Origin: Chloroflexota bacterium
GTDB taxonomy: Bacteria > Chloroflexota > Limnocylindria > P2-11E
Length of the DNA stretch: 64,000 bases
Reading direction: 5' to 3'
Assembly (NCBI GenBank): GCA_027310565.1
Contig: DAIDAP010000015.1
Location: forward strand, 62,001 to 126,000
Under the pieces are notes generated by a model. It was not told the origin of the DNA. It saw nothing but the letters and a program-made list of their open reading frames with translations, and made no database searches. Of the stretch, positions 3,244 through 5,465 are shown one piece after another. The translations under genes and the position numbers were made by a program. How positions within the stretch are numbered: the stretch's first letter is position 1; the number at the start of each line of letters is the position of its first letter.

Positions 3244-3534
3244 TTCCGAGCAGGCCAGACGGTCGCGGCGGCGAGAGCCGTCGAGGAAAGTCCGGACAGC
3301 ACAGGGCAGGGAAGCGGGTAACACCCGTCCGCCGCGAGGCGAGGACCAGCGCCACAGTGACGAACCCGCGCGAGCGGGGTGAAACGGGCAAGCTCTTCCC
3401 GCTGCAAGATCGCGTAAGGGGACCATGGCGTGGCCCGCGCCGTCCCCGGGTAGATCGCTAGAGACGGAGGGCGACCTCCGTCCCAGAGAGATGACCGTCC
3501 TTCGCCAGGATCCGGCTTATCGGCCTGCTCGGCC
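3244..3534 (+). ncRNA. rnpB: RNase P RNA, bacterial type A
   Basis: RNA subunit of RNase P, which matures tRNA 5' ends. The closing P1 helix is CCGAGCAGGCC at 3246-3256 paired perfectly with GGCCTGCTCGG at 3522-3532. Conserved core segments follow in order: GAGGAAAGTCCGGACA near 3281, CACAGGGCAG, GGGTAACACCC, CACAGTGACGAACC, GTGAAACGGGCAAGC near 3379, and AGAGAGATGACCGTCC near 3485. At about 290 nt it is shorter than most type A RNAs, so some peripheral helices are probably reduced. A TAGAAT -10 lies just upstream. Confidence 0.96.
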
Positions 3535-3550
3535 TGCCCGCCCGCCGCGA

Positions 3551-3580
3551 TTGACGGTCGGCGCCCGCGGTTGGTACTGT
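3551..3580 (+). promoter_or_regulatory. Housekeeping-type promoter with extended -10
   Basis: TTGACG (3551-3556), an 18-base spacer, then TACTGT (3575-3580) preceded by TGG, giving an extended -10. Predicted transcription start is near 3587. It stands alone in the gap after rnpB and points toward the intrinsic terminator at 3733-3764. Confidence 0.65.
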
Positions 3581-3586
3581 CGCCTG

Positions 3587-3764
3587 CGCACGCGGTCAGC
3601 GTGACGCTCGGAAAGGAAGTGGCGCAGCCGGTGATGTTCGCCTTCATGCCGCCTACCGCCGGGGGCCTCCCGCGGCGGAGCCTGCCCACTTCAGGGATGG
3701 TCTAGGGAGCTCGCCTCCCGCTCGGACGTCCGGACCGTGGGCAGTGCCCACGGTCTTTTGTTTT
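3587..3764 (+). ncRNA. Candidate small RNA or transcribed leader of about 178 nt
   Basis: The segment runs from a TTGACG/TACTGT promoter to a strong intrinsic terminator and has no plausible ORF. Internal structure includes AGCG-TGA-CGCT (about 3598-3608), a GC-rich nested hairpin starting CCGCC and ending GGCGG (about 3649-3678) and GGGAG-CTCGC-CTCCC (about 3705-3719). Size and layout are like 6S RNA, but I could not match the 6S central bubble, and it does not fit SRP RNA, tmRNA or a riboswitch I know. Because the terminator lies 31 bases before the ABC transporter gene at 3796, an attenuator or riboswitch for that gene is equally possible. Confidence 0.5.
3733..3764 (+). terminator. Rho-independent terminator
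   Basis: Perfect 10-bp stem GACCGTGGGC/GCCCACGGTC with an AGT triloop, followed by TTTTGTTTT. The T-rich tail is striking in this GC-rich sequence and is the clearest intrinsic terminator in the window. Confidence 0.9.
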
Positions 3765-3795: not shown

Positions 3796-4632
3796 GTGAC
3801 CACCGAGACCGCACCCAGACCCGGCGACACGAGCCCACCGGCCGAGGCCCCGCGCGACGCGGTCGTCGCGGTCGGCGTGACGAAGGCGTTCGGCGGGCGC
3901 GGCAAGACCCGCCGCGCCGTGGACCGCGTCACGCTGCACGTCCGGCGCGGCGAGATCTACGGGCTCCTCGGCGCGAACGGCTCGGGGAAGTCGACGCTCA
4001 TCCGCGTGCTCTCGACGCTGCTCATCCCCGACGCGGGCGAGGTGCGCGTGTTCGGCCGCGACGTGCGGTCGGAGGAGCTCGCGGTGAAGCGGCTCATCAA
4101 CCGCGTGTCCGTCGACGCGTCCTTCTTCAAGAAGCTCTCGGCGATGGAGAACCTCGTCTACGCCGGCCGGCTCTACGGCGTCGCTCCGGGCGTCGCCCGC
4201 GAGAAGGCGTCGCGCATCCTCCGCCGGCTCGGCATCGCCGAAGAGCGCGTCGACGAGCCGCTCGAGAAGCTCTCGCGCGGCATGCAGCAGAAGGTGGCCA
4301 TCGCGCGCGCGTTCCTCACGGCGCCGATGCTGCTGCTCCTCGACGAGCCGACGACGGGCCTCGACATCCGCAGCAAGCGGGAGGTCCAGACGTTCGTGCG
4401 CGACCTCCGCGACGAGCACGACGCGACCATCCTGCTCACGACGCACGACCTCGACGAGGCGGAGCGCCTCGCCGACCGCATCGGCATCCTCCACGAGGGC
4501 CGTCTCGTCGCGGAGGGCACCAGCGCGGAGCTGCGCGCGCGCTACGGCGCGGGCGCGCTCGAGGACGTGTTCATGACCGCCACCGGCACGCGGCTCGACG
4601 ACGCGGACATGGCCGAGGGGCCGGCGACGTGA
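3796..4632 (+). CDS. ABC transporter ATP-binding protein
   Basis: ATPase subunit of an ABC-2-type exporter, 278 residues. Walker A GANGSGKST near residues 59-67, signature LSRGMQQK, Walker B LLLLDEPTTGLD and the switch His in LLTTHDLDEAE are all intact. A 20-residue Pro/Thr-rich tail precedes the domain. The start is GTG 3796, with AGGAGG 9 bases upstream. Subfamily patterns match drug/Nod-factor/ABC-2 exporters, but the substrate is not predictable. It overlaps its permease by 4 bases, and expression may be influenced by the terminator immediately upstream. Confidence 0.92.
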   Translation: MTTETAPRPGDTSPPAEAPRDAVVAVGVTKAFGGRGKTRRAVDRVTLHVRRGEIYGLLGANGSGKSTLIRVLSTLLIPDAGEVRVFGRDVRSEELAVKRLINRVSVDASFFKKLSAMENLVYAGRLYGVAPGVAREKASRILRRLGIAEERVDEPLEKLSRGMQQKVAIARAFLTAPMLLLLDEPTTGLDIRSKREVQTFVRDLRDEHDATILLTTHDLDEAERLADRIGILHEGRLVAEGTSAELRARYGAGALEDVFMTATGTRLDDADMAEGPAT

Positions 4633-5465
4633 CCGGCGGCATCGGCGGCCAGCTCGGCCTCGCCTACGCCTTCGTCGAGCGCGAGATCGCGCTCAGCAAG
4701 CGGTACTGGGCGTGGGAGGTCGTCTGGGTCGTGTACGGGATCGTCACGTCCCTCTCCGTCACCTACATCGGCGTGGCCGCGCCGGCGATCACCGGTGGGA
4801 CGGTGGACCAGGCGGCGGTCTCGCGCTTCGTCCTGTACCTCCTCGTCGGCACGATCGCGTGGCGCTTCCTCGGGATCATCTTCGACAACATCAGCGAGGT
4901 CATCGCGTGGGAGCGGTGGGAGGGCACGATCGAGTACACGTTCATGTCGCCGGTGCCGCGCCTCACCCATCTGCTCGGCATGTGCGCGGCGACGCTCGTC
5001 CGCGCACTGGTGTTCAGCGTCGTGACGCTCGCGGCCATCGCGCTGTTCGTGCCCGTCGACCTCTCGCGGGCGAACGCGCTCTCGGCGCTCGCGCTGCTCG
5101 CCGTCGGCGTCCTCGCGTTCGTCGGTCTGGGGATCGCGTGCGCGGCGTTCCCGCTCATGTGGCCCGAGAAGGGCCTGCAGATGTCGTACATCGTCCAGGC
5201 GGTCGTCCTGCTCGTCTCCGGGGTCTACTACCCGGTCGACGTGCTGCCCGGGTGGCTCGGCGCGCTGTCGGCGCTCTCGCCCGCGACCTACGTCATCCGC
5301 GGCATGCGCTCGGCGCTCATGGACGGCGCGGACCTCCTCTCGCTCTGGCCGGAGATCTGGCCGGCGCTCTCGATCGGCGTGCTCTCGATCCCGCTCGGGC
5401 TCGCCCTCTTCGTCCGCGTCGAGCGGTATGCGAAGCGGACCGGCCGCCTCAAGCGCAGCGGCTGA
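4629..5465 (+). CDS. ABC-2 type transporter permease
   Basis: Membrane subunit of the exporter encoded with the preceding ATPase, 278 residues with about six hydrophobic segments (for example VVWVVYGIVTSLSVTYIGVAA near 37-57 and ALLAVGVLAFVGLGIACAAF near 155-175). YYPVDVLPGWLGALSALSPATYVIRGMR near the C-terminus is characteristic of ABC-2 permeases. The GTG start overlaps the ATPase stop, so the two subunits should be made in step. No binding protein or periplasmic partner is encoded nearby. Confidence 0.9.
   Translation: MTGGIGGQLGLAYAFVEREIALSKRYWAWEVVWVVYGIVTSLSVTYIGVAAPAITGGTVDQAAVSRFVLYLLVGTIAWRFLGIIFDNISEVIAWERWEGTIEYTFMSPVPRLTHLLGMCAATLVRALVFSVVTLAAIALFVPVDLSRANALSALALLAVGVLAFVGLGIACAAFPLMWPEKGLQMSYIVQAVVLLVSGVYYPVDVLPGWLGALSALSPATYVIRGMRSALMDGADLLSLWPEIWPALSIGVLSIPLGLALFVRVERYAKRTGRLKRSG

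Follow-up and report, generated by a model that had tools for sequence, protein, structure and literature searches.

The locus analysed here raises the question of what kind of RNA is made from the short stretch between rnpB and an ABC-2 exporter in a Chloroflexota genome. Positions 3551-3764 of the window (the whole stretch of 64,000 nucleotides of DNA that was analysed) contain an extended -10 promoter, a leader of ~175 nt and a strong terminator. The features of the locus are as follows.

3551..3580, + strand: promoter, with -35 TTGACG at 3551-3556, an 18-bp spacer and the extended -10 TGG-TACTGT at 3572-3580
3616..3627, + strand: segment 1, GAAGTGG-c-GCAG in the Shine-Dalgarno (SD) region, whose complementarity to segment 2 gives the protector helix
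3631..3705, + strand: leader ORF, GTG 3631 (or ATG 3634) to TAG 3703-3705, peptide (M)MFAFMPPTAGGLPRRSLPTSGMV followed by the stop
3682..3689, + strand: segment 2, CTGCCCAC, antiterminator strand within the leader ORF and perfect complement of 3737-3744
3733..3764, + strand: intrinsic terminator, GACCGTGGGC-AGT-GCCCACGGTC then TTTTGTTTT, found by terminator scan
3737..3744, + strand: segment 3, GTGGGCAG, part of both antiterminator and terminator 5' arm
3796..4632, + strand: ABC exporter ATPase gene, the next gene after the leader (Pfam ABC_tran, 6.5e-32)
4629..5465, + strand: ABC-2 exporter permease gene (Pfam ABC2_membrane, 2.2e-14), overlapping the ATPase gene

A first-pass annotation had proposed an extended -10 promoter. 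TTGACG, an 18-bp spacer and TACTGT with an upstream TGn are present, and TTGAC together with a TGnTATCGT-like -10 was found again at the same position in relatives. The window promoter did not satisfy the consensus rule of an automated promoter scan, which reported no sites here. Transcription presumably starts near 3587. The loci of genus g5 (L007-L016, e.g. L009 and L014) contain an inverted repeat, GCGCACGCTCGTCGC ... GCGACGAGCGTGCGC, upstream of the leader and overlapping the -35 region and spacer. This repeat is absent from the window, and by its sequence looks like a candidate operator for a DNA-binding regulator.

The class A rnpB (3247-3535) and tRNAs were detected in the window as Rfam matches. 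The end of rnpB is located only ~15 bp upstream of the leader promoter with no clear terminator of its own, and transcriptional read-through from rnpB into the leader is possible. A functional link to rnpB was rejected, as rnpB, where found nearby in relatives, is ~1 kb away (L004, L005, L009, L013). The element sits directly upstream of the orthologous ABC ATPase gene in relatives from both the family and the class, not beside rnpB, and hence belongs to the exporter operon. It is thus not the orphan unit it had been taken for; the leader stretch is the 5' part of the exporter messenger rather than a free-standing small RNA. The exporter ATPase is DrrA-like, with a TIGR01188 score below the family cut-off (232.8 bits versus 312.45).

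The terminator, also proposed previously, was recovered by the scan. Its stem (3733-3755) consists of 10-11 bp with a 3-nt loop, followed by TTTTGTTTT, and two terminator-like sites were observed in the 4-kb region compared to 0.5 expected. The leader as a whole folds modestly better than shuffled sequences do (z = -2.2), a weak signal probably due in large part to the terminator. In L074, L075, L077, L078, L081, L096, L112 and other sister-family loci, the first terminator is often joined 50-100 nt downstream by another terminator-like hairpin, of the GAGCCGCGG...CCGCGGCTC type and with a T-rich tail, and the sequence suggests tandem attenuation there.

The stretch had been described as non-coding. 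It was found to carry a short ORF with a ribosome-binding site between the promoter and the terminator, for which translation is predicted. This SD-led ORF has ~24 codons, a C-terminal end ...PRRSLPTSGMV and a stop codon 27 nt before the terminator. The SD-to-GTG spacing is ~11 nt in the window compared to 7 nt in most relatives. The strong test of the element is its conservation: a DNA search among 101 related genomes matched it in 20 members of the window's family, its own genome among them. All 20 possess the SD region (mostly AAAGGAAG), the short ORF and the octamer CTGCCCAC near the ORF end, and in all 20 the terminator 5' arm carries the complementary GTGGGC. The stop codon is at +21 from the octamer in 18 of the 20 members, with +20 in L017 and +19 in L018; the latter two place the stop in another frame relative to the octamer, yet retain an SD-preceded start that is open to the stop. 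Genomes of the window's family without the ABC gene at the cut-off are also without the element (e.g. G011, 95% complete), and contig ends account for the genomes that show one of the pair and not the other (G004, G009).

The octamer and the terminator arm define the alternative structures. In the window's family, GTGGGCAG comprises the terminator 5' arm plus two loop bases, and pairs with CTGCCCAC in the ORF. Since CTGCCCAC pairs with the terminator 5' arm, antiterminator and terminator are mutually exclusive. Where it contacts segment 2 the terminator 5' arm does not vary, whereas the 3' arm drifts via G-U pairs, a pattern to be expected of a 5' arm that also pairs elsewhere. Segment 2 is invariant in the 20 family members, and the lack of variation in segments 2 and 3 renders covariation uninformative there. 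The protector helix formed by segments 1 and 2 has a mean duplex energy of -22.1 kcal/mol (window's family plus nearest neighbour) versus -14.4 kcal/mol with shuffled segment 1; it is strong only in the window's family and weak elsewhere. Both sides of this helix are altered in L072 (GGAGCGGCGCAG with CTGCCCGCCTCC). In L019 and L020 segment 1 has become GGCAGGG, for which a displaced CCCTGCC around segment 2 is a possible partner, and the leader peptides end in ..TLPTSGPS and ..TLPTTGPS, respectively.

The sister families provide the variation required. Their sequence differs, with the layout remaining the same: an SD, an ORF of ~18-34 codons ending in G-R-S-[V/A]-P and a few further residues, and a terminator. 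The pairing is longer here and includes the terminator loop, with GATCTG-Y-GCCC in the ORF opposite GGGC-CAGATC in the terminator. Matched changes are seen in genus g14 (GGACCG-T-GCCC with GGGC-CGGTC), in g35 (TGTGCCCAC with GTGGGCACA) and in L083, L086 and L107 (GCCCTTC with GGAGGGC). Within the sister families, the mean antiterminator duplex energy is -20.79 compared to -18.35 (sd 0.25) with permuted partners, and 38 double-change cells were counted versus 12.2 (sd 3.2) permuted, the effect of relatedness not being fully removed in these permutation tests. In the 31-sequence sister-family alignment the covariation score of the antiterminator is 0.155 versus 0.092 (sd 0.007), with none of 500 shuffles reaching the observed value, and slid versions of the pairing score at most 0.073. 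Conservation and covariation in relatives had been suggested as a check in the first-pass annotation; both are borne out, by the 20 family genomes and by an antiterminator that overlaps the ORF, excludes the terminator and is kept by covariation in the sister families. A small hairpin, GGCGG...CCGCC, directly follows the leader stop in these families (alignment A6, columns 36-51); it is conserved with a compensatory change and may bring the antiterminator strands together.

A close orthologue of the ABC ATPase is present in 113 of the 177 genomes of the class. The regions upstream of 80 orthologues were fetched, and 77 were used in a scan that employed no peptide motif. An SD-led ORF with a terminator was found in 64 of the 77 regions versus none of 385 dinucleotide shuffles, placing an intrinsic terminator between the leader ORF and the structural gene, and in 62 loci the ORF end forms a duplex of ≤ -15 kcal/mol with the terminator arm or loop. 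R2, a covariance model of the leader as it occurs in the sister families, gave matches in 100 of the 177 genomes; 99 of these do not belong to the window's family. The matches occur nearly always once per genome; a multi-copy regulon was rejected on the basis of essentially one locus per genome. A model built on the window's family (R1) reaches the sister families weakly, which, together with R2 missing the window's family, indicates that the two forms have strongly diverged.

Beyond the class, ATPase orthologues in other groups of the phylum are accompanied by recognisable leaders in several cases, e.g. MTISTNKLITVSVRVREIVLVSPLADAGGRSVPTIRRLKR, MSIVIRRLTGSGPAITVPRRRAVPTACRR and MIGQTMTRLRSGNAGGAPHGGAGSARALPTFRRH. 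An automatic rule identified such leaders in 10 of 27 regions versus 6 of 270 shuffles, and more were apparent by eye. Matches of a pattern scan of named genomes in Actinobacteria, Burkholderiales and Myxococcota were judged to be chance upon sequence inspection, and those in Chloroflexi to be real. In L189, L191, L201 and L203 an extra small gene is located between the leader, which has tandem terminators, and the ATPase gene.

To calculate the consequence of ribosome position, transcripts ending before the terminator 3' arm were folded with 30 nt covered by a ribosome. For a ribosome at codons 1-8 the antiterminator is generally formed, and it is lost once the ribosome occupies the stop or the conserved Pro codon; the folding of the window's own leader is uneven at codons 5-11. 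By geometry and by computation, a ribosome at the leader end would mask the antiterminator strand. The terminator is the equilibrium fold of the full transcript in every computed state, and the antitermination decision must therefore be kinetic.

The sequence shows the leader ORF, the terminator, their mutually exclusive pairings and the conservation of these, and it is very probable from this comparison that the element serves the exporter operon as its 5' leader, acting as a ribosome-mediated transcription attenuator of a drug-type exporter. RNA polymerase would start near 3587 and a ribosome would load on the leader ORF. Translation to the leader end would position the ribosome on segment 2 as segments 3 and 4 emerge, allowing the terminator to form and halting transcription upstream of the exporter. 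If a ribosome-targeting drug, for instance, held the ribosome at an earlier point, segment 2 would be free to pair with segment 3, blocking the terminator and leading to transcription of the exporter ATPase and permease. Read-through would thus be under the control of leader translation. An antibiotic as the source of the disturbance is suggested by the drug-type exporter and by known cases, and the exporter would presumably protect the cell. The attenuator, one of the options named in the first-pass annotation alongside a new small RNA and a riboswitch, is therefore strongly supported, and the other two are not.

The attenuator model leaves the role of the peptide to be considered. Its C-terminal motif G-R-S-[V/A/L]-P is conserved in the window's family and the sister families, with similar endings (RSVPT, RAVPT, RALPT) in other classes. 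Different families encode R-S-[V/L]-P with unrelated codons (CGC AGC CTG CCC versus AGA TCT GTG CCC), and the Arg codon variants of the sister families are almost all synonymous (AGA 54, AGG 9, CGA 6 of 73), although the motif itself partly guided the choice of loci for this count and the CCC codon is also constrained by RNA pairing. The unrelated codons and synonymous changes make it likely, at the level of sequence, that selection acts on the leader peptide besides the RNA. These observations would also fit a specific arrest peptide, in which stalling itself is the regulated step and senses one small molecule or tRNA state. We regard this as unlikely, as the folding calculations show that a ribosome stopped on the motif covers segment 2, favouring termination and not induction. 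Furthermore, conservation of the motif partly serves the RNA pairing, and L017 and L018 keep the RNA in another reading frame. A ribosome paused at the motif would hide segment 2, such that the peptide may enforce the off state. It is possible, if tentative, that the G-R-S-[V/A/L]-P end acts as an inherent pause signal in the nascent chain, holding an undisturbed ribosome over the antiterminator strand. Termination would then be the default and any upstream failure of translation would release the exporter, making the leader an old, drug-class-independent translation-stress sensor of Chloroflexota that uses an arrest peptide in inverted fashion.

Other classes of regulatory RNA can be considered against the same data. 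In the trp operon attenuator the stop codon is placed so that the finishing ribosome masks the antiterminator strand, and helices 1:2, 2:3 and 3:4 can form. The Chloroflexota leader shares this stop placement and these helices along with a leader ORF, and a trp/his-type amino-acid attenuator sensing charged tRNA would have the same architecture. However, inspection of the leaders revealed no run of a single regulatory codon, their first half is poorly conserved, and the controlled gene encodes an exporter rather than a biosynthetic enzyme, making such a system very unlikely. Alternative terminator and antiterminator structures are likewise a property of ligand-binding riboswitches. Here, conservation is found in the ribosome-binding site, the end of the ORF and the terminator sequence complementary to that end, with no conserved aptamer-like core besides the latter two; the sequence from the SD to segment 2 is variable with the reading frame kept. 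A riboswitch is accordingly highly improbable, and no known Rfam riboswitch or leader was found at gathering score in the window stretch or in 16 divergent loci. We attach equally little weight to a trans-acting small RNA with the terminator as its own 3' end. Promoter and terminator do bracket ~175 nt, and the terminated leader would be a short RNA, but the element has a fixed position upstream of one operon and a conserved ORF and antiterminator. The 6S-like character suggested on the basis of length is not borne out, a whole-genome search with the 6S RNA covariance model (RF00013) having yielded nothing at E ≤ 10. As anticipated in the first-pass annotation, the stretch is without a match to an Rfam family; two microRNA models and M23, at 20.2 bits against a cut-off of 41.2, gave near-misses that were dismissed as chance.

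The ribosome-mediated attenuator most closely resembles the bmrB-bmrCD system of Bacillus subtilis, for which control of read-through by leader translation has been shown experimentally: undisturbed translation leads to termination, and antibiotics that slow the ribosome lead to read-through (PMC4191407). Both place a leader ORF (translated in bmrB, predicted to be so here) together with an antiterminator and an intrinsic terminator ahead of an ABC transporter, that of bmrB being a multidrug transporter (PMC4191407). In bmrB, however, the terminator lies within the leader ORF, whereas it is located 23-45 nt past the stop in the Chloroflexota element, which also differs in controlling an ABC-2 DrrA-like exporter, in its phylum and in the conserved peptide end over the antiterminator strand. 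The likeness proposed is one of mechanism. Resistance genes under leader-based attenuation that responds to ribosome-targeting drugs are also described, with the leaders of vmlR (PMC9226507), msrD (PMC10314930) and mef(E)/mel (PMC4335068); these leaders control ABC-F factors or the mef/mel pump in Firmicutes. Attenuators upstream of ABC transporter genes were predicted by Naville and Gautheret in 2010 as ABC-leaders, the main text of which does not mention Chloroflexi, Roseiflexus or Herpetosiphon (PMC2965389). A literature search of incomplete coverage found no leader-peptide attenuator of an exporter described for Chloroflexi. The kind of system is hence already known; the family, its phylum and the conserved peptide end appear to be new.

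The element would constitute a family of regulatory RNA that Rfam lacks, conserved across one class of Chloroflexota and recurring in others. It would make the conserved exporter a candidate translation-stress or antibiotic response in these bacteria, and the end of the leader peptide a candidate for nascent-chain pausing.
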